Below, one piece after another: positions 24,892-64,000 of a DNA stretch of 64,000 bases. The notes beneath the pieces are model-generated. The model saw only the letters and a program-made list of their open reading frames with translations, did no database searches and had not been told where the DNA came from. The position numbers were made by a program, and so were the translations under genes. The stretch is from Gemmatimonadetes bacterium bin94 (GTDB lineage Bacteria > Gemmatimonadota > Gemmatimonadetes > Longimicrobiales > Gaopeijiaceae): the NCBI GenBank assembly GCA_002238865.1, contig MPNE01000018.1:1-64000 (forward strand), in the 5' to 3' direction. How positions within the stretch are numbered: the first letter of the stretch is position 1; the number at the start of each line of letters is the position of its first letter.

Positions 24892-27291
24892 TCACTGTGT
24901 GTTGACCTCGAGCGGCCGGTGAGACGGTTCCTGCTCCGCGACGGCGTTCACGATCATGTCCGGGACCACGGGAGTGCGGTTGAAGTAGTGCCCCCCGAGC
25001 GCGTCGGAGATCGCGCACAGCAGCGCGGCCGCCGAACACCCCATGAGGGGCTCGCCGACGCCCTTGGCGCCGACCGGGTTCTGCGGGTCGGCGATGTCGG
25101 TTGCGTCCCAGTCCAGGTACGAGGGCACGTCGAGGTACGACGGCGGCTTGGCCTGGTGGAAGCCGATGTTCCCCGCCACCCCGTAGCGCCGGTCGTAGAC
25201 GTGGCGCTCCAGCGCGGCCATGCCGAACCCCATCACCGCGCCGCCCTTCACCTGCGCGGCCAACCCCAGCGGGTGCACGACCGTGCCGCAATCGGCGACC
25301 CCCAGGTAGTCGATGATCTCGAAGGTTCCCGTCTCGACGTCGAGCTCGATCTCGATGAACCCCGCCGCCAGCGCGGGAACCGTGCCGTCGCGGGGCAGGT
25401 TGTCCCTGGCGACGCCGATCAGGCCGCTCCCCGCGATGTTCGCGACCGAGGCGGCCGTGATCGGGTTGATGTCCTCGGGCACCTCCATGCCGCTGAACCG
25501 CCCTCCCAGCGCGATCGCGCGCTCGGCCGCACGCGCGTAGCTGATCCGCCGCGACGGGTTGGCGCGCGCGAAAACGGCCTCGCCGCCGATGTCGTACCCG
25601 TCCGCCGACCCGCCCAGCTCCATCGCCGCGATCGCCTTCAGCTTCTCGACCGCGTCGACCGCCGCCACGTACGCCGCGCGCGTCATGGTGAAGGTCGTGT
25701 TGCTCCCCACCTGCGGGCTGCTCGACGCGAGGTTGCGCGACGAGTCCCCGCGCACGATCACGCAGTTCTCCCAGTCCTGGCCCAGCACCTCGGCGGCGGC
25801 CCGCGAGACCCCGGCGTACGAATAGGTCCCCAGGTTCCCGACCCCGCAGTGAATGTGCAGCTTCCCGTCCGGCGCGATCCGCACGAGCCCGTCCTGGCCA
25901 CTCATCCCGGCCGAGTGGAAGGCCTGCCCGACGGCGACCCCGGTCACCTTCGAGCCCCGCCGCACCCCGCTCCGCGCCCGCCGTTCGTCCCAGCCGAAAC
26001 GCTCCTTGCCCCGATCGAGCGCCTCGCGCAGGTGCGCGCTTGTCACCGGACCCTGATTGCCACCGTATCGCGAATCGCTGTCGGGCGCGTTCACCCTGCG
26101 GATCTCCACCAGGTCGATCCCCAGCGCGGCCGCCGCCTTGTCGAGGAGCGGCTCCACCGCGCAGGCGATCTGGTTCTGGCCCGGCCCGCGCTGCGCTCCC
26201 CGCGCGGGGGTGTTGGTCAGCACCGGAATCGCGCGGAAGCGCATGGCGAGGGGCGTGTACACGATGGAGACGGCGCCCGCCGCGCTGCCGTAGTCGCCGA
26301 ACCCGCTGTTGGGACCGTTCTCCTGCACGATGAACAGGTCCGCCGCCGTGACCCTGCCGTCGTCCCGGAACCCCAGGCGGATGCGTCCCTGGAACCCGGC
26401 CCGCGCCGCCCCGATGGCGTACTCCTCGGCCCGGCTGATCCGCATCATCACGGGGCGGCCGGTCTTCCTGGACATGTGCGCCGGGATGGACATGACCGGA
26501 TACGCGCCGCCCTTGGAGCCGAACCCGCCTCCGCAAAACTCGCCCACGTAGACCAGGTCGGCCACCGGAATCCCGATGTAGCGGGCCAGGCCGCCCAACA
26601 CGGCGCTCTGGCTCTGGCTGGATCCGAAGACGTGGCACTTGCCGTTCTGCCAGTACGCCATCGCCGAGCGCGGCTCCATCGAGTGGTGCGAGGTGCCGGC
26701 GGTGACGAAGGTCTCGTCGAGCACCAGCGCGGCATCGCGGAAACCGGCCTCTACGTCCCCGTAGGACCACTCGTTGTTGACCTCGCCCATCGGCAGCTCG
26801 CCCTCTGCCGCCGCGGCGAAGTCCGCCTCGGTCCACTTGATCTCCCTGACTCCCTCGCGGCGTTCGACCGTGTTGCCGTCCTCGCGCGCATTGGGACCGC
26901 CGGGGCGCAGGCTCTCCAGCGGATCCAGGACGAAGGGAAGCGGCTCGAGGTCGAGCTTGACCCTCTTGATCGCGTCGTGGGCGGTCGTCTCGTCCACTGC
27001 GGCGAGCGCCGCGACGGGCTCGCCCACGAAGTGCGGCGTGTTGGTCAGGATGGGGTTGCCCGGTGCATCGATTTCGGGCACGTCGTCGGCGGTGAGGATG
27101 GCGACCACCCCCTCCATTGCCAGCGCTTCCGTCGCGTCGATCGCGCGCACCCGTGCGTGCGGCATGGGACTCGTGATGAGACGGCAGAAGAGCATTCCGT
27201 CGGCACGGAAATCCTCCGCGTACCGGGCTCTGCCGGTGACCTTGGCAACCACGTCCGGCGGGGTGAAGTCCTTCCCGATCAGGTCAGCCAT
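24892..27291 (-). CDS. Molybdopterin-binding subunit of aldehyde/xanthine oxidoreductase (PaoC-like)
   Basis: The 799-residue catalytic subunit of the xanthine oxidase family carries the molybdenum-cofactor dinucleotide. Visible family blocks are VTGRARYAEDF at the N-terminus, GEFCGGGFGSKGG, RGPGQNQIACAVEPLLDKAA and the C-terminal GAKGVGEPLMG, whose glutamate is the usual catalytic base. The substrate could be aldehydes or purines; the neighbouring NCS2 permease favours a nucleobase-like compound while the PaoABC-type subunits favour aldehydes. Its start overlaps the iron-sulphur subunit by eight bases, with GGAGG upstream. Confidence 0.93.
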   Translation of the reverse strand: MADLIGKDFTPPDVVAKVTGRARYAEDFRADGMLFCRLITSPMPHARVRAIDATEALAMEGVVAILTADDVPEIDAPGNPILTNTPHFVGEPVAALAAVDETTAHDAIKRVKLDLEPLPFVLDPLESLRPGGPNAREDGNTVERREGVREIKWTEADFAAAAEGELPMGEVNNEWSYGDVEAGFRDAALVLDETFVTAGTSHHSMEPRSAMAYWQNGKCHVFGSSQSQSAVLGGLARYIGIPVADLVYVGEFCGGGFGSKGGAYPVMSIPAHMSRKTGRPVMMRISRAEEYAIGAARAGFQGRIRLGFRDDGRVTAADLFIVQENGPNSGFGDYGSAAGAVSIVYTPLAMRFRAIPVLTNTPARGAQRGPGQNQIACAVEPLLDKAAAALGIDLVEIRRVNAPDSDSRYGGNQGPVTSAHLREALDRGKERFGWDERRARSGVRRGSKVTGVAVGQAFHSAGMSGQDGLVRIAPDGKLHIHCGVGNLGTYSYAGVSRAAAEVLGQDWENCVIVRGDSSRNLASSSPQVGSNTTFTMTRAAYVAAVDAVEKLKAIAAMELGGSADGYDIGGEAVFARANPSRRISYARAAERAIALGGRFSGMEVPEDINPITAASVANIAGSGLIGVARDNLPRDGTVPALAAGFIEIELDVETGTFEIIDYLGVADCGTVVHPLGLAAQVKGGAVMGFGMAALERHVYDRRYGVAGNIGFHQAKPPSYLDVPSYLDWDATDIADPQNPVGAKGVGEPLMGCSAAALLCAISDALGGHYFNRTPVVPDMIVNAVAEQEPSHRPLEVNTQ

Positions 27292-51659: not shown

Positions 51660-52106
51660 TTATACGGATACAAGAGAAGGGAGCCTTGGGGAACCGTGAA
51701 CCTTGCAAATGCACCGGTTGGTAGACCCCACCGTTACCGTCCCAATAATGGACGCAGTACGGATGTAGGTGCCGCGGAAGTCAAGGGTGACCGACCCACC
51801 AGTTTCAGGGATGGTGGCCGCGGAGGATGTCGCATCGAAGCTGGCGTCCGCCGGGAAGCCGCTGATGGTGACGGTGTAGGCGCCTGCCTGGACTCCGTCG
51901 AAGCGGTAGTTGCCGCCGCCGGCGGTCGTGGTGGAGGCGCCGGTGCTGAGATTGACGGATACACCGTCGATCCCCATGCCCTCGATCGAAACCTGGCCCA
52001 TGATCGAGCCGGTAGGCGGCGGAGGAATAACGTCCTCTCCGCAAGCCGCGATGATCGGGAGCACCAGCAACGTTGCCGCCGCGAGGAGCTTCCTGAATCT
52101 TTCCAT
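51660..52106 (-). CDS. Lipoprotein start module (N-terminus of the giant surface protein, inverted)
   Basis: From ATG 52106, preceded by AAGGAG, the minus strand encodes a signal peptide and lipobox (LVLPIIAACG, cysteine about 20). One full carboxypeptidase-regulatory-like domain follows (SIMGQVSIEGMGIDGVSVNL to DFRGTYIRTAS, about residues 29-119), then the start of another (IIGTVTV, residues 120-126). The frame then runs into 22 unrelated codons and stops at 51660, giving a 148-residue product. The domain is the same kind as the repeats beginning the 2314-codon frame at 53338 (IMGQVAVEGVGLAGVTVTM). The break falls exactly in the 17-bp sequence shared with that gene. I read it as the detached 5' end of the giant gene. 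Confidence 0.75.
   Translation of the reverse strand: MERFRKLLAAATLLVLPIIAACGEDVIPPPPTGSIMGQVSIEGMGIDGVSVNLSTGASTTTAGGGNYRFDGVQAGAYTVTISGFPADASFDATSSAATIPETGGSVTLDFRGTYIRTASIIGTVTVGSTNRCICKVHGSPRLPSLVSV
51728..51744 (-). repeat. Left inverted repeat of the invertible segment
   Basis: Plus-strand CCACCGTTACCGTCCCA is the exact reverse complement of the copy at 53409-53425. It lies inside the reading frame of the lipoprotein start module, at its last homologous codons (GTVTV). Confidence 0.8.
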
Positions 52107-52292
52107 TCCGTTTTCTCCTTGGAAACGGGTGTTTGAGCCGCCCCGCATCTCGGGGGTGCTGCCACGCAAGCGTCGCAAGATCGGTGCCACTTGTCTGAAT
52201 ATCATGTAAAATGCTATCTGCTATAGGCATACGGTCATCGGGACAAGATTGGAGAACGTCGGATTCTCACCCATGGTCAGATTTCCGTCGCT
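52107..52292 (-). promoter_or_regulatory. Probable promoter region of the lipoprotein start module
   Basis: The gap between the recombinase stop (52293) and the lipoprotein ATG (52106) contains an AT-rich patch. On the minus strand it reads TTGTCCCGATGACCGTATGC, then CTATAGCAGATAGCATTTTA. TTGTCC and TATAGC/TAGCAT are tentative -35/-10 boxes. On inversion this promoter would point into the giant gene. The exact boxes are uncertain. Confidence 0.4.
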
Positions 52293-53267
52293 TCAGCTCT
52301 GCCGGGCGTAGTATCGGGCAACGGCACCATGCCCCGCCGCTTCGCCACGTGAGTAGTGGGCCGGCATGCGTTCGGACTTCCACCGCCCCGCGTTCATGAT
52401 TGCGACAAGTCCGGCCCCCTGCGCGGTCAGATCCTGCGTCATTCCCACTCTCGGAGAATGTCCCGAGAATCCCTCGCCGAGTCCCGCCTCCCTGCACATC
52501 GCGGCGATCCGGACGCTGATGGTCCTGCCCCGCCGCACACCGAACACCCTGGCCAGCGGATCCGGCTTCCGCGGCCGGATGCGCTTCAGCGCCCTCGTCG
52601 CGCGCGCGCCCACGTAAAGGACAGCAGGAGTGTTGGACGTCTTCGAGCGCCGGATGATCACTCGGGAGGTCCCGTCGCGCCGGAACTTGACGTCGGTCCA
52701 ACGCAGGTCGGCGGCTTCACGGCGTCGCAACAGTGCGTCTCTCATGACGGACACGATGGCGATGTCCACCTCTCCGCGCCAGCGCGCGGCCCGGGAAGAC
52801 TCGGTGCGGCCGGACGGGAACACCCGCCGCAGGTGCGCGGTCTCGACAATGGCTGCCAGCCCCTCTTCACGGAGCCCCCGGGCCTGCTTCGGTTCGGCCC
52901 TGCCGCGGGCGGCGGCGCGGTTCCTGACACCGGCCAGCGTCATCTTGACTCCCTCGGAAGCGGTGGGTGTGGGAACGCCGGCGCGGCGATGGAAGAAGCT
53001 GATCGCCTTCCGATCCATGGCAAGCGACGCCAAAGACAACCCCAGTGCATCACGGTGGACCAGGTAGGCGGCCACCGTGACCGGAGCGGCGGGAAGCGAC
53101 GTGACTCCCTCCTTTTTCGCCCAGGTCCGAAATCGGGTCCAGGCGGCCTGGTAAACCTTCCGCGTGGTCGGGCGCTGGCCCTCGAGGACGGCGGCGGCCA
53201 CGGCTTCCAGGTGACGCGTCTTGAGATCACTTCCATTTATCAGGGCGGTGGCGGAATTAGTGCTCAT
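52293..53267 (-). CDS. Tyrosine recombinase inside the invertible segment
   Basis: The 324-residue site-specific recombinase has an N-terminal SAM-like DNA-binding domain (RKVYQAAWTRFRTWAKKEGV). The catalytic domain contains the first arginine region (MRDALLRRREAADLRWTDVK), the HxxR box (SGHSPRVGM), a tryptophan in the third position (GRWKSERM) and the nucleophilic tyrosine in PAHYSRGEA. GGAGGGG just before ATG 53267 sets the start; longer in-frame sequence runs antisense through the giant gene. It is about three-quarters identical by eye to the recombinase at 61895-62872. Its location between the inverted repeats makes it the likely invertase. Confidence 0.9.
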   Translation of the reverse strand: MSTNSATALINGSDLKTRHLEAVAAAVLEGQRPTTRKVYQAAWTRFRTWAKKEGVTSLPAAPVTVAAYLVHRDALGLSLASLAMDRKAISFFHRRAGVPTPTASEGVKMTLAGVRNRAAARGRAEPKQARGLREEGLAAIVETAHLRRVFPSGRTESSRAARWRGEVDIAIVSVMRDALLRRREAADLRWTDVKFRRDGTSRVIIRRSKTSNTPAVLYVGARATRALKRIRPRKPDPLARVFGVRRGRTISVRIAAMCREAGLGEGFSGHSPRVGMTQDLTAQGAGLVAIMNAGRWKSERMPAHYSRGEAAGHGAVARYYARQS

Positions 53268-53278
53268 ATTCCCCTCCA

Positions 53279-53305
53279 ACGTGCTGTTTTGAGGCCCCAG
53301 CACGT
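53279..53305 (-). promoter_or_regulatory. Hairpin directly upstream of the recombinase ribosome site
   Basis: ACGTGCTG (53279-53286) and CAGCACGT (53298-53305) form a perfect 8-bp inverted repeat with an 11-base loop, immediately before the recombinase Shine-Dalgarno on the minus strand. A second small hairpin (GGGG-TAG-CCCC) lies a few bases further out. It could be an operator, a core recombination site or a translational control structure that keeps recombinase levels low. Confidence 0.5.
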
Positions 53306-53337
53306 AACCGGGGTAGCCCCCCGAAACGTCTGTCCGG

Positions 53338-56300
53338 ATGTGGTCGCACACGCGTTCCGTGCCGCCGAAATCGGTGGCGCTTTGCTCGAATCCGACGACA
53401 ACCGAAGCTGGGACGGTAACGGTGGAGAACATGGGGCTTGGGGGTGTTACGGTCAGGCTTTCCGGCATGGCCGACGCGCAGACCGCCACCGACGACAACG
53501 GCCAGTATTCGTTCACGGGCCTGCGGGCCGGGACGTACTCGGTCGAGATCTCCGGATTCGACATGGATGAGGTCGGCTTCGGGAGCATTTCGTCCGCCGC
53601 CACGGTCGGCGTGGGTGAGTCGAAGGTCATCAGCTTCGACGGCACGTACCTCCGCACGGCCGGCATCATGGGCCAGGTCGCCGTGGAGGGCGTGGGCCTT
53701 GCGGGCGTGACCGTCACCATGACCGGTGAAGGCGAAGACATGACCGACGTCACCGACGCCGGTGGTCTGTACGCCTTCTCGAAGCTCAAGGCGGGCGACT
53801 ACTCGGTCGCGATCTCGGGCTACGACACCGACGACTACGAGTTCGCAACCACTTCCGAGAACGTGACGGTCGCCACGGGCGAGACCGCGAACATTCCGTT
53901 CGAGGGCATACTGCTCCGCACGGCCGGTATCAGCGGCCGCGTGAGCGTCGAGGGCACGGGCATCGACGGCGTCGAGGTCGTCCTGGCCGGCGCGGCGGAC
54001 GCTACGGCGATGACATCCAGCGGCGGGCAGTATTCGTTCGCCGGTCTCGCCGAGGGCACGTATGTCGTGAGCATGACGAACCCGAACGCGGACGCCTACT
54101 CCTTCGAGACGATGCAGTACACGATCGCACTGGCCGACTCGGAGTCGAAGATCCAGAACTTCGAAGGCACGCACACGCGGACCGCATCGGTCTCGGGCAT
54201 GCTGTTCATTGACGAGGTGATGCAGGACAAGATGCACACCGCGGGCGAGCCCTCGATCACCGCGGCGCTTGCGCCGCTCGTGGCGCATGGGTTGCTGGAC
54301 GAAATGGTGCTGGCGGGCCTGCTGAGCAATGCGAAGGTGCTGCTCCGGGGTCCGGATCTCAACACCATGACTGAAGTGTCCATCAATGCCGACGGTACGT
54401 ACACGACGGGCGAGGCCCTGCAGGCAGGGTCATACCAGGTCGAGCTGCCGGCCAACAACGAGATGGTGGCGGCGGGGCTCGCGGCTGCCGGCGTCGCATT
54501 CGTCGGCGAATCGGCGGTGGTGACGGTGGCGGCGGGTGGCAGTGAGACCGTCAACTTCCCGTTCCGGATCACCATGCAGACGGTTGGCGTCGGCGCGGTG
54601 ATGGGGAATGCGGAGATGGTGTCCGATCCTCCACTTCCGGTCGAGGGCGTCACGCTTGCGTTGTTCCCCACGGCCCAGGACGCCGAAGCAGGCACGAACA
54701 TGCTGGGCATGGGGGCCGAGACCGGTGAGACCGGTATGACGGCCTTCCAGTTCGCGCGGGCCGACGACACCAGTCCCGGCAGCGAGGACACCGACAACAT
54801 CGTCTTCGTGAAGGTTGTGGAAGCCGGTCACGAAGACCTCATGGTGTCCGACGGAGCCGTCATCGAAGTCCGGTACCCCGGTGTTTCGCGGGTGCATGCG
54901 GCGCCGACTTCCGTTCGCTTCGTGAACGTCGCGGTGAACTTCCAGTTCTGGATCAAGAACGACGCGGACGCGCGCGGCGGCGACGTGCTGGTCGATGGCT
55001 GGCACACGGACGTATACATGGGCGAAGTGACGGACGAAAGCGTTCCGCTCATGATGGAGGACGAGGACGGCGACACCGTGAACCTCACCATGCCTTCCGA
55101 GAGTGCAGAGGACGATGACGGCATGCAGGGCAGGGTGATGGTCACGTACCGGGTGACGGCGGACCAGCTGCCCGCGACCTTCAGCGCGGCGTTGAGGCCG
55201 GACAACACGGACGACACGGACGACATTGACGACTGGCAACAGCCGATGGCGATGGGAGAGACGTGGGAGGCAGTGGGCGATGGGCTGACCTACACGCACA
55301 CCGGTTTCGCGCTTCCGAAGTACAACACGCACGAAGTAAACGACTTGAACCTGAACCCGAGGTTCGGACAGGCTCCGCTCCGCGTCACCTTCACAACGCA
55401 GAAGCTGACGGTCGGCGTGTACAGAGAGACCGACGACGAGCCGGGCTTTACGAACTTCCAGAGCAAGGTGGACGGGGGAGACCAGCGGCCGCACAAGGAC
55501 ATCGCGGCGGAGATGAGCGTCTCGGTCATGGTTGAGGCGTCGGGCCGCAGAGGTCTCGAGGTGTACGACGAGTGGGATCACGACCGCAACCCGAAGACAC
55601 CAGCCATTGACGCCACGATTACCGGGTTGACCGGCGGAATGGCGACCTTCGGGAACCTGCCGGCCGACATGGACTTCACGGTCCAGCTCAATGAGGGCAG
55701 CGACCGGGTGGCGGTCGGTGGTCCGGACAGCCGGAGCGACCGCGTTCAGGCCTACGGGGACGACCTCGACTTGGGCATGTCGGTTGGCGCGTTCGGCGAC
55801 GATAGTGGCGCCGGGCCCGAAGTTCGGCTCTGCCCCTTGTCGTCTTCGTCAGAGGATGACATGTGCTCGACCTTCGGCTACCAGTGGACGTCCGGGTCGG
55901 CCGACGGGAAAGTCACGCGGCGTGGCGCGGGCGTCGCCAGCGCGACGGTGAATCTCGACGCCATCACCGACAATCACAGCCCGGACGAGAGCACGAAGAC
56001 CAGCAAGGCCGCGGCGACGAAGGGGAACTACAGCTTCTCCGGCGTCCAGGACGGCGAGTACTGGGTGCGCACACCGGCAACGAAGGACAACAAGGCCGAC
56101 AGTGCGAGAGTCGCGCTCTATCACGACGAGGAGGAGGACGACGACGAGGATGACGGGATCACCGGAAATCCCGCTACGTATACCAAGGACTTCGACGTCA
56201 CCGCGCTGAGACTCGAGATCAAGGGATATGTTGCCAACGATGGCCAGGAAGGCGACAACGAGACTCCGGATCTCGACCAGATCGTGCGTGGCGACGAGGC

Positions 56301-59300
56301 CGTTGCGGGCATCGAGCTCGAACTCCTGACGATTACCAAGGTTTCGACGAACAAGAAGGACACCACGTTCAAGGTCCACCAGACCACAGAGACCGAGGAT
56401 GACGGTTCCTACGCCTTCAGTGACGTTGTCGAAGGCAGCGCATACTACGTCAGGGCCACCGGCACCGGCGAGTACCACGCTGCCGAAGCCAGCGCGATGG
56501 ATGGATTCTCCCGGAAAGTCCCGGCCGACGAGTACCCGGCCGTGGAGGAGGGCGAATTCGCGCTGCCGTACTGGAACTACAATGAAGGCAAGGCCATGAT
56601 GACCGCGGTCACGGTGAGCGACGAGGACGGAGAGGTCGAAGCCTCATTCGTGAACTTCGCTCTGCTGTACGTGGACGGCTCGATCTCGGGCAGAGTGAGA
56701 GAAGCCTCCGGCAACCCCGGCAACATCACGATCGAACTGATTCGTTGCGACACGTACGATGCCGACGACGCGGAATGTGGCACCTACAACCGCGACGACT
56801 TCCCGACCCTGACCACGGAGACGGCGAAGAACGGCAGCTGGGAGTTCAACGATCTCCTGGAAGGCTGGTACGAGGTCTACGTCGGCGAGGCGGGTTACTT
56901 GGCTGCCAACATCGACGACAAGAAGCAGATCGACGACGACGGGGCGACCGAGTCGGCCGACATGCACACCGGCCTCGTGAAGGGCAGGCGTGATCTGGCC
57001 GCCGGCAACAACTTCTATCTCTACGACAACGGTCTGGCTGACGACGACGATCTGGACGGCATCGAAGTGGAGGGAACGACCGACCCGGACGACGACCCGG
57101 AGGACCTGGCGGCCAATGCGACCATCGCGGCCCAGGGCAGCAACGCAGCAACGGCAATCACGGGCGTGAGCAGCACCCCGATCACATTCGGGTCGGAATC
57201 CGTGACGGTGGAGCCCGATATCCACGAGGACGCGACCTTCAAGGTTACCACGGGCGCGGGCAAAACCCTGAAGTCATGGCCGATCTCCAAGGGCGTGGCC
57301 ACGGTCGACCTGGGCTGGAACAAGACCGGTTCCGAGGATGAGGGCGAAGACCCGATGGAGACGGAGATCACCGTGGCTGTCACCGCCGAGAACGGCTACG
57401 ACGACCACGACTATACCTTCTCTGCCTCCCGCATGAACCCGGTTGGGAACGAGTTGTTGGCACGTGACTTCGTTGTTGAAGCACCTGTCGGCGCCGATGT
57501 CGTGGCAGCCTTCGGTCAGATCGACCAGTTCACTGTCAATGTGGCGGAAAAGGCCGAAGAACTGACCTTTACGGTGGAACTGGAGGACATCGAGAAGCAG
57601 GTATTGATGGTGTCGATGGGCGGCGACGAGGTTAAGCCATCGGATCGCAAGCGCGCCGACCGTAGCGATGAGCAGAGGTACGAAGTGGAGTTGGCCGACG
57701 GGGCGAACACCATCGACCTGATGGTGACCTCGGAGGATGAAGAGGAGCAGTCCTACCAGCTGATCGTCCGGAGAGACGCACGCTCGGGTGACGCGACTCT
57801 GAAGGCCCTGAGCCTGAGCGCAGGCTCGCTGAGCCCAGCGTTCAACGCGGCCACTACATCGTACACGGCCAGTGTGGCGAACGCCGTTACATCGGTTAGG
57901 GTCACGGCGACGGCGAATCATAGCGGCGCCACCATCTCGCAGAGTCCGACGAACCCGGTCGCTCTTGCAGTGGGCCCCAACCGGATAGCGGTGACGGTCA
58001 CCGCCGAGGACGGAACCACGGAGACCTACACCGTGACGGTGTCGCGTGACTCGCCGGGAGTTTCGTCGGACGCGACGCTGAGTGCGCTGAGCCTGAGCGA
58101 AGGCGCGCTGAGCCCGGCGTTCGACCCGGCCATGCTGGAGTACACGGCCAGTGTGGCGAATTCCGTTACAGGAGTTACGGTCACGGCGACGGCGAATCAT
58201 GGTAGCGCCAGCGTCGCCCAGGATCCGGTCAACCCGGTCGAACTCATGGTGGGCGTCGCCAAAGAGATCACGGTGACGGTCACCGCCGAGGACGCTACCA
58301 CGATGAGGGAGTATACCGTCACGGTGACGCGTGAGGCGCCGGGAATCTCGTCGGACGCGGATCTGGGTGCCCTGAGCCTGAGCGCGGGCACGCTGGACCC
58401 GGAGTTCGACGCGGCCACTACATCGTACACGGCCAGTGTGGGGAACGCCGTTACATCGGTTAGGGTCACGGCGACGGCGAGTCATAGCGGCGCCAGCGTC
58501 TCGCAAAGTCCGACGAACCCGGTCCCTCTCAATGTGGGCGACACCGAGATCACGGTGACGGTCACCGCCGGGGACGGAACCACGATGAAGGAGTATACCG
58601 TCACGGTGACGCGCGGCGCGGCAGGAGCTTCGACGGACGCGACGCTCAGTGCCCTGAGCCTGAGCGGTGTGACGCTGAATGAGGAGTTCGCCGCCACAAC
58701 GTATGCCTACACGGCCGATGTGGCGAATAGCGTCGAGTCCACCACGGTGGCCGCTACGGCGATGGATGCCGCCGCTACGGTCACGCTGCCTGACCCCAAC
58801 CCGGTCGTTCTCGACGAGGGCGACACCGAGATCACGGTGACGGTCACCGCCGAGGACGGAACCACGACCCAAGCGTATACCGTCACGGTGACGCGGGCGG
58901 CGGCACCGACTGTGCCGGGGTTGCTCGTCTCGATTGAAGACGTGACCGTCATGGAAGGCACCGAACGTGACTACACGATGCGGCTGACTACCCGGCCGAG
59001 CGGCGATGTATCGGTGGCCCTTACTGTGGAAGCACATGCCGACAACCCGGCTAATGCCGACGTTACCCATATCACAACGACGCGCACCTCGTTGACATTC
59101 AACGAAAACAACTGGAATCGTGCGCGGACCGTGACGATAGCGGTCGCCGAAGATGAAAACGAGAGCAGCGAAATCGCAAACATTAACCACGCGATTTCCG
59201 GAACTGGCAGTTACAATGGTCTCGACCCCGTGGCTATCAAGGTGACCGCGGGCGACAACGACGTCGTTTCAGGCGCTGCAATTCGGGTCGACATGGCTGC

Positions 59301-60282
59301 CGTCACGCTAACCGAGGATGACGAAGACGATGGCAGTGCGGAGGTCATGGTTCGCCTCGCCGCGATGCCTACGGGCGAGGTGACTGTAACTGTGGCAACG
59401 TCAGCAGAAGCGGTCGCCACTGTAGCGCCGCCAAGCCTCACGTTTACGGCTTCGAACTGGGATGACGAGCAGGCGGTCACGGTGACGTCCGTGGCGGATG
59501 ACGATCCGGCCGACGCCGAGGCCACGGTAACGCTTTCGGCGACCGGTGGCGGCTACGGTAGCGCAGAAGACGTTGAGGTCGCCATTGCCGTTGAGGACGA
59601 CGAAGAGGCTACGATTTCCGTCTCGGACGACTTTGAGAACGCCGAGATTGTCGAAGGTGGCAACCTTACGTACGTGATCAGCTTGTCGGCCCCTCCGGTG
59701 GCAGGCGAGACGGTGCGCGTAAACCTGCAGGCGCGGGGACTCGCTACGGTGGATCCGGCACAGGCTGTGTTTACGTCTGATACCCAGGACAACCAGATAA
59801 CAATAACGGTTGCGACGTTGGCGGACTCCGATAGCGACGACGAGACTCTCCTGATAATCCACACTGTCGATGCCGACGAGGATTCAGGGTACAGGGGCGC
59901 GGCGCCACCATCGAACATCAACGTTGCGGTCAAGGACTCTGACGCCGCCGGCGTGGTGGTGAGCCGCACCTCGCTGAGTGTCGAGGAAGGCCAAACGGTC
60001 ACGTACTCTGTAAGGCTGACCAAAGCGCCTTCAACCGACGAATCGGTGACGATACACCTTGCCGGGACGGGCGTGAACCTCTCTACAGGGTCTTTGACAT
60101 TCACCTCAGGTGACTTTTCCACTCCACAGCCTGTCACGGTGACTGGCCACACGGACAGCGATAGTGTTGACGACCAGGCGATGGTGGAGCATACGGTCGT
60201 TGCCACTGGCGGTGACGAGGACTACGACGGGGTGACTGCTTCAACGGTCAGGATCACGGTCACGGAACCGCCCAGCAGCTAG
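53338..60282 (+). CDS. Giant adhesin-like repeat protein lacking its secretion signal (OFF state)
   Basis: The open frame has 2314 codons; residues 1-24 look non-coding, and homologous sequence begins at the 17-bp repeat (GTVTV, residues 25-29). Next come carboxypeptidase-regulatory/CNA-B-like repeats (GVGLAGVTVTMTGEGEDMTD, GTGIDGVEVVLAGAADATAM, to about residue 300). A long acidic region with more such domains follows (about 340-1480), then four cadherin-like beta-sandwich repeats (LSLSAGSLSPAFNAATTSYT type, about 1485-1860). Four Calx-beta-like repeats (TSLSVEEGQTVTYSVRLTKA type) run to the end. No promoter, ribosome site or signal peptide precedes it. All are supplied by the inverted module at 51660-52106. 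It is probably a calcium-binding surface or secreted adhesin. Confidence 0.8.
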   Translation: MWSHTRSVPPKSVALCSNPTTTEAGTVTVENMGLGGVTVRLSGMADAQTATDDNGQYSFTGLRAGTYSVEISGFDMDEVGFGSISSAATVGVGESKVISFDGTYLRTAGIMGQVAVEGVGLAGVTVTMTGEGEDMTDVTDAGGLYAFSKLKAGDYSVAISGYDTDDYEFATTSENVTVATGETANIPFEGILLRTAGISGRVSVEGTGIDGVEVVLAGAADATAMTSSGGQYSFAGLAEGTYVVSMTNPNADAYSFETMQYTIALADSESKIQNFEGTHTRTASVSGMLFIDEVMQDKMHTAGEPSITAALAPLVAHGLLDEMVLAGLLSNAKVLLRGPDLNTMTEVSINADGTYTTGEALQAGSYQVELPANNEMVAAGLAAAGVAFVGESAVVTVAAGGSETVNFPFRITMQTVGVGAVMGNAEMVSDPPLPVEGVTLALFPTAQDAEAGTNMLGMGAETGETGMTAFQFARADDTSPGSEDTDNIVFVKVVEAGHEDLMVSDGAVIEVRYPGVSRVHAAPTSVRFVNVAVNFQFWIKNDADARGGDVLVDGWHTDVYMGEVTDESVPLMMEDEDGDTVNLTMPSESAEDDDGMQGRVMVTYRVTADQLPATFSAALRPDNTDDTDDIDDWQQPMAMGETWEAVGDGLTYTHTGFALPKYNTHEVNDLNLNPRFGQAPLRVTFTTQKLTVGVYRETDDEPGFTNFQSKVDGGDQRPHKDIAAEMSVSVMVEASGRRGLEVYDEWDHDRNPKTPAIDATITGLTGGMATFGNLPADMDFTVQLNEGSDRVAVGGPDSRSDRVQAYGDDLDLGMSVGAFGDDSGAGPEVRLCPLSSSSEDDMCSTFGYQWTSGSADGKVTRRGAGVASATVNLDAITDNHSPDESTKTSKAAATKGNYSFSGVQDGEYWVRTPATKDNKADSARVALYHDEEEDDDEDDGITGNPATYTKDFDVTALRLEIKGYVANDGQEGDNETPDLDQIVRGDEAVAGIELELLTITKVSTNKKDTTFKVHQTTETEDDGSYAFSDVVEGSAYYVRATGTGEYHAAEASAMDGFSRKVPADEYPAVEEGEFALPYWNYNEGKAMMTAVTVSDEDGEVEASFVNFALLYVDGSISGRVREASGNPGNITIELIRCDTYDADDAECGTYNRDDFPTLTTETAKNGSWEFNDLLEGWYEVYVGEAGYLAANIDDKKQIDDDGATESADMHTGLVKGRRDLAAGNNFYLYDNGLADDDDLDGIEVEGTTDPDDDPEDLAANATIAAQGSNAATAITGVSSTPITFGSESVTVEPDIHEDATFKVTTGAGKTLKSWPISKGVATVDLGWNKTGSEDEGEDPMETEITVAVTAENGYDDHDYTFSASRMNPVGNELLARDFVVEAPVGADVVAAFGQIDQFTVNVAEKAEELTFTVELEDIEKQVLMVSMGGDEVKPSDRKRADRSDEQRYEVELADGANTIDLMVTSEDEEEQSYQLIVRRDARSGDATLKALSLSAGSLSPAFNAATTSYTASVANAVTSVRVTATANHSGATISQSPTNPVALAVGPNRIAVTVTAEDGTTETYTVTVSRDSPGVSSDATLSALSLSEGALSPAFDPAMLEYTASVANSVTGVTVTATANHGSASVAQDPVNPVELMVGVAKEITVTVTAEDATTMREYTVTVTREAPGISSDADLGALSLSAGTLDPEFDAATTSYTASVGNAVTSVRVTATASHSGASVSQSPTNPVPLNVGDTEITVTVTAGDGTTMKEYTVTVTRGAAGASTDATLSALSLSGVTLNEEFAATTYAYTADVANSVESTTVAATAMDAAATVTLPDPNPVVLDEGDTEITVTVTAEDGTTTQAYTVTVTRAAAPTVPGLLVSIEDVTVMEGTERDYTMRLTTRPSGDVSVALTVEAHADNPANADVTHITTTRTSLTFNENNWNRARTVTIAVAEDENESSEIANINHAISGTGSYNGLDPVAIKVTAGDNDVVSGAAIRVDMAAVTLTEDDEDDGSAEVMVRLAAMPTGEVTVTVATSAEAVATVAPPSLTFTASNWDDEQAVTVTSVADDDPADAEATVTLSATGGGYGSAEDVEVAIAVEDDEEATISVSDDFENAEIVEGGNLTYVISLSAPPVAGETVRVNLQARGLATVDPAQAVFTSDTQDNQITITVATLADSDSDDETLLIIHTVDADEDSGYRGAAPPSNINVAVKDSDAAGVVVSRTSLSVEEGQTVTYSVRLTKAPSTDESVTIHLAGTGVNLSTGSLTFTSGDFSTPQPVTVTGHTDSDSVDDQAMVEHTVVATGGDEDYDGVTASTVRITVTEPPSS
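53409..53425 (+). repeat. Right inverted repeat of the invertible segment
   Basis: TGGGACGGTAACGGTGG lies at the exact point where recognisable coding sequence of the giant gene begins. It is read GGG ACG GTA ACG GTG, in the same phase as the left copy. Confidence 0.8.
57841..58524 (+). repeat. Near-identical cadherin-like DNA repeats in the giant gene
   Basis: Bases 57841-57960 and 58405-58524 differ at only about six of 120 positions, while the unit between them (about 58120-58240) is more diverged. All units end in variants of GTGACGGTCACCGCCGAGGA. This points to recent duplication or gene conversion, and the repeat number could vary by slippage or recombination. Confidence 0.75.
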
Positions 60283-61065: not shown

Positions 61066-61902
61066 GTGGGCTCGGTGGCACCGGCGGCGAGCCCCGGTGG
61101 CGTGGGGTGCCCGGCGAACACGGACGCAGATAGCCGCGCCCTGAGTGACCGCGAGGCCCTGGTGGCGCTCTACAACGGCACCGGCGGCCCGAACTGGCAC
61201 AGCAACGGGAACTGGCTCACCGAAGAGCCGCTCGATCGGTGGCATGGCATCACGACCGATCACGCGGGCCGAGTCAAGAGCCTGAGCCTGGAAGAGAACA
61301 ACCTGGAGGGTGCGATCCCGCCGGAACTGGGCAGGCTCGGCAACCTTGAGCAGGTTTTTCTTGACGACAACGAGCTGACGGGCTCCATCCCGCCGGGACT
61401 CTCGAGTCTGACCCGCCTCTGTTGGCTGGGGCTCAGCGGCAACAGGCTGACGGGCGCCATCCCGCCGGAACTCGGCAACATGGCAAGGCTTGAGGGGCTG
61501 GGGCTCGGAGGCAACAACCTGACCTGCGCCATTCCGCCTGAGCTCGGCAAGCTGGGCAGGCTTCAGGATCTCTGGCTCGGAGAGAACAACCTGACGGGCG
61601 CCATCCCCGCGGAACTCGGCAATCTGCGCCGCCTTGTCTGGCTGGGGCTCGGACACAGCAGCCTTGCGGAAGCGGTCCCCGCGGAACTGGGCGACCTGCA
61701 CAACCTCGAGACCCTGTCACTGAACAACACCCGACTGACGGGCCCGTTGCCGCCGTCCCTTGCGGGGCTGGAGAGACTCGACGAGTTCAGCTACTTCAAC
61801 ACGGGGTTGCGGATCCCGGACGACGAAGCATTCCGTTCATGGCTGGAATCTCTTCCGTTCCATCGGGGCACGGGCGTGCGCGCCATGTCGGGCACTATCT
61901 GA
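61066..61902 (+). CDS. Leucine-rich repeat protein, plant-type LRRs
   Basis: The 278-residue protein has an N-terminal cap (SDREALVALYNGTGGPNWHS, NGNWLTEEPLDRWHGITTD) and seven or so 24-residue repeats of the pattern LxxLxLxxNxLTGxIPPELG (for example LGLSGNRLTGAIPPELGNMA). This is the plant-receptor-like LRR type found in many secreted bacterial proteins. The GTG start has no clear signal peptide, so export is unproven or the 5' end lies elsewhere. Its stop overlaps the convergent recombinase stop by eight bases. It probably mediates protein or peptide binding. Confidence 0.78.
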   Translation: MGSVAPAASPGGVGCPANTDADSRALSDREALVALYNGTGGPNWHSNGNWLTEEPLDRWHGITTDHAGRVKSLSLEENNLEGAIPPELGRLGNLEQVFLDDNELTGSIPPGLSSLTRLCWLGLSGNRLTGAIPPELGNMARLEGLGLGGNNLTCAIPPELGKLGRLQDLWLGENNLTGAIPAELGNLRRLVWLGLGHSSLAEAVPAELGDLHNLETLSLNNTRLTGPLPPSLAGLERLDEFSYFNTGLRIPDDEAFRSWLESLPFHRGTGVRAMSGTI

Positions 61903-62872
61903 TCCCGCCATAGTAGCGGGCGACAGCCCCCATCCCCGCCGCTTCACCCCGTGAGTAGTAGGCGGGCATGCGTTCGGACTTCCACCGTCCGGCGTTCATG
62001 ATCGCGACAAGGCCGGTTCCGTGTGCAGCGAGATCCTGAGCCATTCCCACCCTGGGCGAGTGGCCCGAGAAGCCGTCACCGAGTCCCGCTTCCCTGCACA
62101 CCGTGGCAATCCGCGCACTGATCGTCCTGCCGCGCCGCACGCCGAATACCCGCGCGCCGGGGATCGGACTGTCCGGACGGATGCGTTTCAGAGCCGCCGT
62201 CGCCCGGACGCCCAGGTAGAGGACGGCGGACTTGTTGGACGTCTTCGAGCGCCTGATGGTCACCCGTGAACTTCTGTCAGCCCGGAATTCCACGTCGCTC
62301 CACCGCAGGTCGGCGGCTTCCTGCCGTCGCAGCAGCGCGTCTCTCATCACGGACACGATCGCGATGTCCACCGCCCCACGCGTCCGCGCCGCGCCGGGAG
62401 ATTCCATGCGGCCGGAAGGATAGACCCGCGGGATGTGCGCCGTGTCGGTGATTGCCTTCAACTCCGCTTCCCGGAGCCCGCGGGCCTGCCGCCGCCGGGG
62501 CCCTCCGCGTTCGGCGGCGCGGTTTCTCACGCCGGCGATCGCCATCTTGACGCCTTCGGAAGCCGTCGGCGTCGGGATCCCGGCCCGTCGATGAAAGTAG
62601 CTGATCGCCTTGCGGTCCATGGCAAGGGTGGCGAGGGACAGCCCCACGGCATCGCGATGGACCAGGTAGGCCGCCACGGTGACCGGTTCGGCGGGGAGCG
62701 ACGGGACGCCTTCCCGCTGCGCCCAGGCCTGGAACCGCTTCCAGGCGGCCGTGTAGGCCTTGCGCGTGCTAGGACGCTGGCTCTCCGCGATGGCCGCGGC
62801 CACGGCCTCCAGGTGACGTGCGGCGAGGATGTCCTTGATCTGGATCAGAGCGACGGCGGAATCGTTGTGCAT
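61895..62872 (-). CDS. Second tyrosine recombinase, paralogue of the invertase
   Basis: The 325-residue protein aligns end to end with the recombinase at 52293-53267. Identical blocks include TVAAYLVHRDA, LAMDRKAIS, PTASEGVKM and SGHSPRVGM, and the active-site tyrosine is in PAYYSRGEA. GGAAGGGG precedes the ATG. It lies 99 bases downstream of a LuxR-type regulator on the same strand, so the two may form a unit. No second inverted-repeat pair was found around it by eye. It may act on the same sites, on sites outside the window, or be a duplicate. Confidence 0.88.
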   Translation of the reverse strand: MHNDSAVALIQIKDILAARHLEAVAAAIAESQRPSTRKAYTAAWKRFQAWAQREGVPSLPAEPVTVAAYLVHRDAVGLSLATLAMDRKAISYFHRRAGIPTPTASEGVKMAIAGVRNRAAERGGPRRRQARGLREAELKAITDTAHIPRVYPSGRMESPGAARTRGAVDIAIVSVMRDALLRRQEAADLRWSDVEFRADRSSRVTIRRSKTSNKSAVLYLGVRATAALKRIRPDSPIPGARVFGVRRGRTISARIATVCREAGLGDGFSGHSPRVGMAQDLAAHGTGLVAIMNAGRWKSERMPAYYSRGEAAGMGAVARYYGGIR

Positions 62873-62971: not shown

Positions 62972-64000
62972 TCAGCGCTCGGACCCGGGGAATCCGTCCA
63001 GCGACAGCACGCGCCGCACAAGCTCCGCCTGCCGTGAAATGCGTTGCTTGCGGAAGATCTGCTTCACGTGCCAGCGGACGGTACTTTCCGTGCGCTGGGT
63101 CATTGCGGCGATCGCGGACAAGCTATGCCCCCTGGCCAGCATGACCGCCAGGCGGGCCTCGGCCGGAGTGAGACCCAGGGAAGCTGCAACGAGGCCGGGG
63201 TCGACCCGAACCGGACGATCCGGTTCGACGACCAGTACAAGCGCGGCGACCCGCCTGGAGCGCACCTCCCGCCGGCTCCCGGCAACGGGGTGGACGTGAA
63301 CGACGAGCCTCGGTTGCCTCGATGTGCGCTGGACCGTCATCGACCCGCTCGCCAGCCGGGCGGAGAGCGGCGACGTCGCGCAGGCCAGCAACCGTTGAAG
63401 TTCGCTGTTCTCTTCCGTCCTCCTGGCCGCCAGCAGACCGTCCCGGTCGAACAACCCGTCGCCTTGTCGCAGGAGGCCGGTCGCCAGGTCGTTCGCCTCC
63501 AGAACTCGCCCCTGCCCGTCCAGCTGGATGACGCCGAAGCGCTCGTTGTCGAGCAGATCGGCGAGCGAGCATCCCTGTGCCTCGGCATCGGCCACCGCCC
63601 GCAGCACCCGCGCGAACTGGCGCACGTGGGGCACCAGGGAAGAGACCATCCTGACTTGCTCGGAGCCCCAGCCTCCGGGTGCGATCGAATCTCCCAACGC
63701 CCACACGATATGCGATCCCACCGGTCCGTCCAGGTACATTCTGAGCCCGTTCTGCTGTCGGGCGGGGCCCCGCATCAGGTCGTACGTTCGCGAGGTCTTC
63801 TTCTCGTGGTCGGTGTACATCTCGGTCGTATGCGCCAGTTCACCCCTGCACAGCTTCTTGACGCGGGGAATGCTCTCGTCGTAGAGCAGAAAGTCCCGCA
63901 GGTGCGCCCGCTCCAGGTCATCGCGATGTTCACTGCCGACGATGAGCCGAAAAAAGAAGAGCTCCGGTCTGGGCTGGTGGCGCCGGTCGCTGAACGCCAG
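62972..64000 (-). CDS. LuxR-type transcriptional regulator, 5' end outside the window
   Basis: The frame is open from base 64000 to the stop at 62972 (about 342 codons), so the start is missing. The C-terminal HTH is clear: LGLTPAEARLAVMLARGHSL, then TQRTESTVRWHVKQIFRKQR. The N-terminal part contains a PAS-like stretch (NERFGVIQLDGQGRVLEAND) and a segment ELAHTTEMYTDHEKKTSRTY typical of a group of LuxR proteins with a sensor half. It is probably a one-component regulator. It sits immediately upstream of the second recombinase gene and may control it. Confidence 0.85.
   Translation of the reverse strand: MAFSDRRHQPRPELFFFRLIVGSEHRDDLERAHLRDFLLYDESIPRVKKLCRGELAHTTEMYTDHEKKTSRTYDLMRGPARQQNGLRMYLDGPVGSHIVWALGDSIAPGGWGSEQVRMVSSLVPHVRQFARVLRAVADAEAQGCSLADLLDNERFGVIQLDGQGRVLEANDLATGLLRQGDGLFDRDGLLAARRTEENSELQRLLACATSPLSARLASGSMTVQRTSRQPRLVVHVHPVAGSRREVRSRRVAALVLVVEPDRPVRVDPGLVAASLGLTPAEARLAVMLARGHSLSAIAAMTQRTESTVRWHVKQIFRKQRISRQAELVRRVLSLDGFPGSER

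Follow-up and report, generated by a model that had tools for sequence, protein, structure and literature searches.

Inverted sites, a start module and a headless giant gene

We analysed a window of 64,000 nucleotides of Gemmatimonadetes bacterium bin94 (contig MPNE01000018.1, positions 1 to 64,000), in which a segment of 1698 bp at 51728-53425 is predicted to be invertible and to control the joining of a lipoprotein start module to a giant repeat-protein gene. Comparison of sequences, on which all of our conclusions rest, makes it very likely that an inversion system operates at the two ends of this segment and, with somewhat less confidence, likely that inversion is active at present. This reading is supported by a second switch in the same genome, by paralogues in which the two halves are fused, by a conserved site, by a linked recombinase clade and by purifying selection. 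In the proposed mechanism, the tyrosine recombinase encoded inside the segment, or a paralogue of it, would recombine two inverted 17-bp sites. In the present (OFF) orientation only a 148-aa lipoprotein would be made and the giant gene would be silent; after inversion the start module would read in frame into the giant gene to give a 2411-aa surface lipoprotein. We infer that the encoded recombinase is the actor, that inversion still goes on, that the module carries a promoter and that the purpose of the switch is surface (phase or antigenic) variation. Across the genus, inversion would swap heads: the promoter, the signal peptide and the first domain would go to one giant protein or another, or to no more than a short stub.

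The 17-bp repeat, TGGGACGGTAACGGTGG, occurs as two perfect inverted copies separated by 1664 nt, base-exact at the positions given in an earlier note on this DNA: 51728-51744 (minus strand) and 53409-53425 (plus strand). These sites bound the predicted segment, which holds the start module and the recombinase gene, and both sit in reading frame. The first lies within the start-module open reading frame (ORF), over the codons G-T-V-T-V, and the second marks the 5' edge of the headless giant gene. No other inverted pair of at least 17 bp within 2.5 kb is present in the window. At least one 17-bp inverted pair was also found in 3 of 60 first-order Markov resamples of the window, so that repeat length alone is modest evidence. 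Part of the inverted similarity stems from homologous repeat domains on opposite strands, which give longer inverted matches at 73%.

The start module (51660-52106, minus strand) begins at an ATG at 52106 and is preceded by a Shine-Dalgarno-like AAGGAG, approximately at 52112-52121, in an upstream block that is identical in the paralogue on contig C7 of the same genome. Translation, Pfam and homologues fused to giant genes elsewhere define a signal peptide with the lipobox LPIIAAC (MERFRKLLAAATLLVLPIIAAC) and one SdrD_B/CarboxypepD_reg-like domain. As presently oriented, the ORF stops 22 residues beyond the repeat, in a non-conserved tail, giving a protein of 148 aa. The earlier note had credited the module with a Shine-Dalgarno sequence, a lipoprotein signal, a first repeat domain and a promoter; all but the promoter were recovered.

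On the other side, the headless giant ORF (53410-60282, plus strand) opens with E(NMGLGG), is 2285 codons long and ends with a stop at 60282. It encodes SdrD_B/CarboxypepD_reg domains followed by Cadherin-like repeats, with neither a signal peptide nor a conserved start. The earlier description of a 2285-codon repeat protein with no start is correct in length and too strong in one respect: there is an in-frame ATG at 53338, although it brings no signal peptide and the frame upstream is not conserved in relatives. Inversion in silico joined the halves in frame and gave a lipoprotein of exactly 2411 aa, where about 2411 had been predicted. Over its first 400 residues this fusion can be aligned, with no gaps, to C29 and C10, two intact genes of the same genome that are paralogous to it and in which the halves are joined; 338 and 349 residues, respectively, are identical. 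Around the join the residues are TASIIGTVTVENMGLGG in the fusion, TASIMGTVTVENMGLGG in C29 and TASIMGTVTVENTGLGG in C10. The junction foreseen in the earlier note is therefore one that intact genes carry, and the protein predicted for the ON state has the form that is normal in this family.

The gene between the repeats (52293-53267, minus strand) is, as had been claimed, a tyrosine recombinase gene; it is intact and encodes 324 aa with a match to Pfam PF00589 (Phage_integrase; E 4e-9). An alignment showed R176, K209, H270, R273, W296 and Y305 to be invariant across 23 homologues. The nearest solved structure is Cre, with a sequence match over residues 43-212. An NCBIfam search assigned no family, and matches in PHROGs were to generic integrases. 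Relatives found in a viral scan were just 34-35% identical, leaving a phage origin unsupported. In a tree the recombinase belongs to a clade of 17 members with a support of 100, and close recombinases were nearly confined to the genus of the window among the 154 genomes of the order that were searched.

A second switch and related arrangements in the genus

A complete second switch, with the layout and spacing of the one in the window (start module, recombinase and headless giant gene), is present in the same genome (G000) at C7:26245-27943; the window locus is called C57 below. Its inverted arms, AGGGACAGTAACGGTGG, lie at 26245 and 27927, and its recombinase is about 81-82% identical to that of the window, while the start modules are 93-100% identical. 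The arms of the two loci differ at two positions, which are third-codon positions in both protein halves. Within each locus the arms are identical: C57 has T..G in both and C7 has A..A in both. Two related genomes showed the same agreement: in G031 each arm has A as the variable R, and in G026:C44 each has an extra G. Arms that match within a locus and differ between loci indicate exchange between arms.

Related arrangements were sought among genomes of the same genus in the GTDB collection, which comprise Gemmatimonadetes/Gemmatimonadota metagenome-assembled genomes (MAGs) and one complete chromosome, OX638356.1 (G032); the bin names of several of them, we take it, point to sponge surveys. 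The 5' edge of headless giant genes coincides exactly with a conserved site, GGGGAC(R)GTAACGGT, the first base of which is T or A in the two switches of the window genome. Wherever the contigs extend far enough, most recombinases of the clade have the 5' edge of a headless giant at a distance of ~85-165 bp. The distance is 676 bp in G026:C44, and the second recombinase copies described below are likewise exceptions, as are the recombinases in G023, G017 and G029:C70, which have no headless neighbour in view. Start modules are cut off just past the site by a short unrelated tail in C57, C7, G031:C105 and G023:C18. In other cases the site joins them to a giant gene: in C29 and, as the earlier note had proposed to check in related genomes, in G032, G029:C77, G031:C145 and G033. 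In G023:C18 (L108 7373-8575) two start modules stand in tandem, the first cut off at the site and the next fused to a giant gene.

Each switch has two exact sites, and these are inverted in C57, C7, G031:C105, G032 and G026:C44. Just two exact sites occur on the complete chromosome G032, near 3080828 and 3127473, in inverted orientation and at a distance of 46.6 kb. One joins a start to giant A and the other heads a silent giant B beside the recombinase; the topology is that of the window, except that a giant gene stands where the window has its 22-aa tail. The sites of G026:C44 enclose two giants, tail to tail, and leave the start and the recombinase outside, so that a flip there would also swap partners. 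The earlier note had called the window locus an OFF switch. The comparison supports a switch and qualifies the term, since the OFF state still yields a 148-aa lipoprotein and some relatives would choose between two giants. An assembly artefact was rejected, as the layout recurs in the second locus, in several independent MAGs and in the complete chromosome. More tentatively, and at a little under even chances, these loci may form a genome-wide head-swapping network in which one recombinase family serves separate loci, with start modules and headless giants up to 46 kb or more apart. If so, each cell of a host-associated symbiont population would show a different giant surface lipoprotein or stub.

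The site is associated with the recombinase and appears to be constrained as DNA. Of the 12 genomes that have a clade-I recombinase, 10 contain intact sites, as against 1 of the 11 that lack one (Fisher p 0.0006, uncorrected for relatedness). Although GTA accounts for 4.7% of the valine codons of giant genes, every intact site has it as the first valine codon, whereas fused homologues away from a recombinase mostly have GTG or GTC at that valine. This suggests that the constraint acts on DNA. A synonymous version of GTAACGGT would be GTGACGGT. Matches to GGGCCGGTAACGGTAG in G024, G027 and G030 were discarded because they lie outside giant genes.

The silent giant B has orthologues in G016, G026, G029 and G032 whose reading frames run unbroken from the site for 1363-1396 codons, with pairwise ratios of nonsynonymous to synonymous substitution rates (dN/dS) of 0.21-0.32. 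A gene that selection maintains although it lacks both a signal peptide and a conserved start probably has some occasional expression, and joining to a start module would be the simplest route to it. Gene conversion among N-terminal parts probably acts in addition. In G029 a fused giant (L114 10624-12195, C77) and a headless giant (L115 1620-49, C100) share 1572 bp at 99.94% identity from the site and then diverge; the near-identical block may reflect recent conversion or a mixed assembly. We rejected these two contigs as the two states of one inversion, since they diverge after 1572 bp and the end of C100 resembles another contig. They are therefore better read as two giants with a homogenised N-terminal part.

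Evidence against inversion and competing explanations

Several observations weigh against inversion, or against its being frequent. A promoter scan gave two weak matches on the plus strand and none on the strand of the start module. Silent B is headless in all four species in which it was found, so switching may be rare. The window contains a second recombinase of the same clade (61895-62872, minus strand; 77% identical), and no recombination site was found beside this gene or beside its counterpart on C7. The sites of G026:C44 (L054 9413 and 18675) carry an extra G, five versus four, and its start and giant frames are one base out of register at the junction. In G030 the site of the headless gene next to a recombinase is degenerate, and G033 has an intact site with no recombinase match.

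Past inversion may have fixed the present state and left the giant gene a decaying orphan, in keeping with C57 and C7 both being in the same OFF state, with B being headless in four species and with the fast divergence of the C57 and C7 giants beyond their N-terminal part (dN/dS 0.64 over all aligned codons). We consider such a fossil switch unlikely, because the ORFs are intact over 1363-2290 codons, the recombinases are intact, the arms are identical within each locus, and dN/dS is low both for silent B and, at 0.33, for the first 253 codons of C57 versus C7. Less probable again is a silent archive, in which headless genes donate to expressed fused copies by homologous gene conversion, as in pilE or vlsE, and the recombinase is incidental. 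The near-identity of the C57 and C7 start modules, set against recombinases at about 82%, and the shared 1572 bp in G029 would fit it; it leaves unexplained the DNA-level site, the position of this site at the headless 5' edge, the inverted topology and the linkage to the recombinase clade. Such an archive may nevertheless act alongside inversion.

The headless ORF might be expressed by itself, from the ATG at 53338 or another start, with the inverted repeat reflecting domain similarity on opposite strands. The in-frame ATG, the longer inverted matches between opposite-strand domains and the non-negligible chance of a 17-bp pair would allow this. We regard it as highly improbable, given that extracellular-type domains would then lack a signal peptide, that site and codon are conserved across species, and that upstream frames differ in relatives, two of which have in-frame stops 10-12 codons before the site. 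Least probable of all is the integration of a mobile element that carried the recombinase and split an ancestral giant gene. The second recombinase does form a unit of ~1 kb whose placement next to LRR and LuxR genes differs between C57 and C7, but integration would leave direct rather than inverted attachment repeats and an unturned start module, and the inverted topology recurs in G031 and in the complete G032.

Known inversion systems and neighbouring features

Head-swapping inversion systems are best known from mollicutes. In mechanism the predicted window switch matches Mycoplasma pulmonis vsa and Ureaplasma mba: the inverted sites lie inside coding sequence, the 5' end carries a ribosome-binding site and signal that the silent partner lacks, and the two would be in frame after inversion. 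Systems of this type also offer each 5' end more than one C-terminal gene, a layout seen in G032 and G026:C44; the window has only its 22-aa tail as an alternative. Compared with vsa and its HvsR recombinase (PMC3047005, PMC2268961), the present system is in another phylum, with single giant partner genes of 1360-2290 codons and scattered loci. In mba/UU172 of Ureaplasma parvum, a conserved N-terminal anchor joins either of two ORFs via short inverted repeats, one of them intracoding; insertions of one base are seen at the inversion sequence, as are truncated products that consist of the N-terminal part only (PMC3047005). The 148-aa stub resembles these N-terminal-only products and the extra G of G026:C44 the one-base insertions, whereas the recombinase gene within or beside the switch, the far larger proteins and the occurrence in Gemmatimonadota are unlike Ureaplasma. 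The Xer1 recombinase gene of Mycoplasma agalactiae adjoins the vpma lipoprotein genes, the expression of which is under the control of inversion, as disruption and complementation proved (PMC2268961); there, inversion connects a silent ORF to an active promoter region (PMC3047005). A dedicated recombinase beside lipoprotein genes is a shared feature, and the point of exchange inside coding sequence is a difference.

Other inversion and recombination systems are less similar. The Rci shufflon (PilV) uses inversion at short, asymmetric sites to give one constant N-terminus different C-termini, which are encoded in a cluster of several cassettes bounded by sfx sites. In contrast, there are one or two partners here, the moving part is often the N-terminal module and there is no cassette cluster. 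Invertible promoters of the fim type have repeats outside the ORF and leave the protein unchanged, unlike the in-frame repeats of the window, and integrated mobile elements have direct attachment repeats. Cre, a phage enzyme that acts on a target site of its own, is likewise a tyrosine recombinase, albeit a distant one.

Searches of the open-access literature yielded no case of surface variation driven by a recombinase in Gemmatimonadota, which is weak evidence of absence. The earlier note knew of no such switch for this protein type or phylum; this stands for the phylum, while the type of mechanism is already known from vsa and mba, so that what would be new is the phylum and the giant proteins. 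If the system is active, giant surface proteins would be varied by a mollicute-type trick in bacteria that are for the most part uncultured and in many cases apparently symbionts of sponges. Symbiont-host or symbiont-phage recognition would then become testable from existing metagenome reads, and some apparently truncated giant genes in such MAGs would be silent alternatives rather than pseudogenes.

More distant recombinases show related features. Relatives in Acidimicrobiia, Dehalococcoidia and Chloroflexi/Chloroflexota MAGs (L179-L182, L184, L188, L189) have inverted repeats close by on either side, such as AATTGCCGTTATCCC with copies 1.23 kb apart. The cassette of L181 is oriented opposite to those of L183 and L186 with respect to a conserved flank; this fails as direct proof of inversion, as L183 has no second arm and L186 ends at a contig edge. 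Together these features suggest that inversion may be a habit of the wider recombinase family. A sister class of recombinases at ~50% identity occurs in the same genus (L057-L064, L066-L068), and nothing consistent emerged when it was checked for flanking inverted repeats and for giant or headless genes.

The second recombinase of the window and its counterpart at G000:C7:35375-36340 each lie downstream of their giant gene, as a block of ~1.05 kb. Window positions 62975-64000, continuing to contig position 65409, hold two tandem homologous genes that by eye have a LuxR-type look, with a helix-turn-helix, and a relative of these genes is present at C7:34087-35118.

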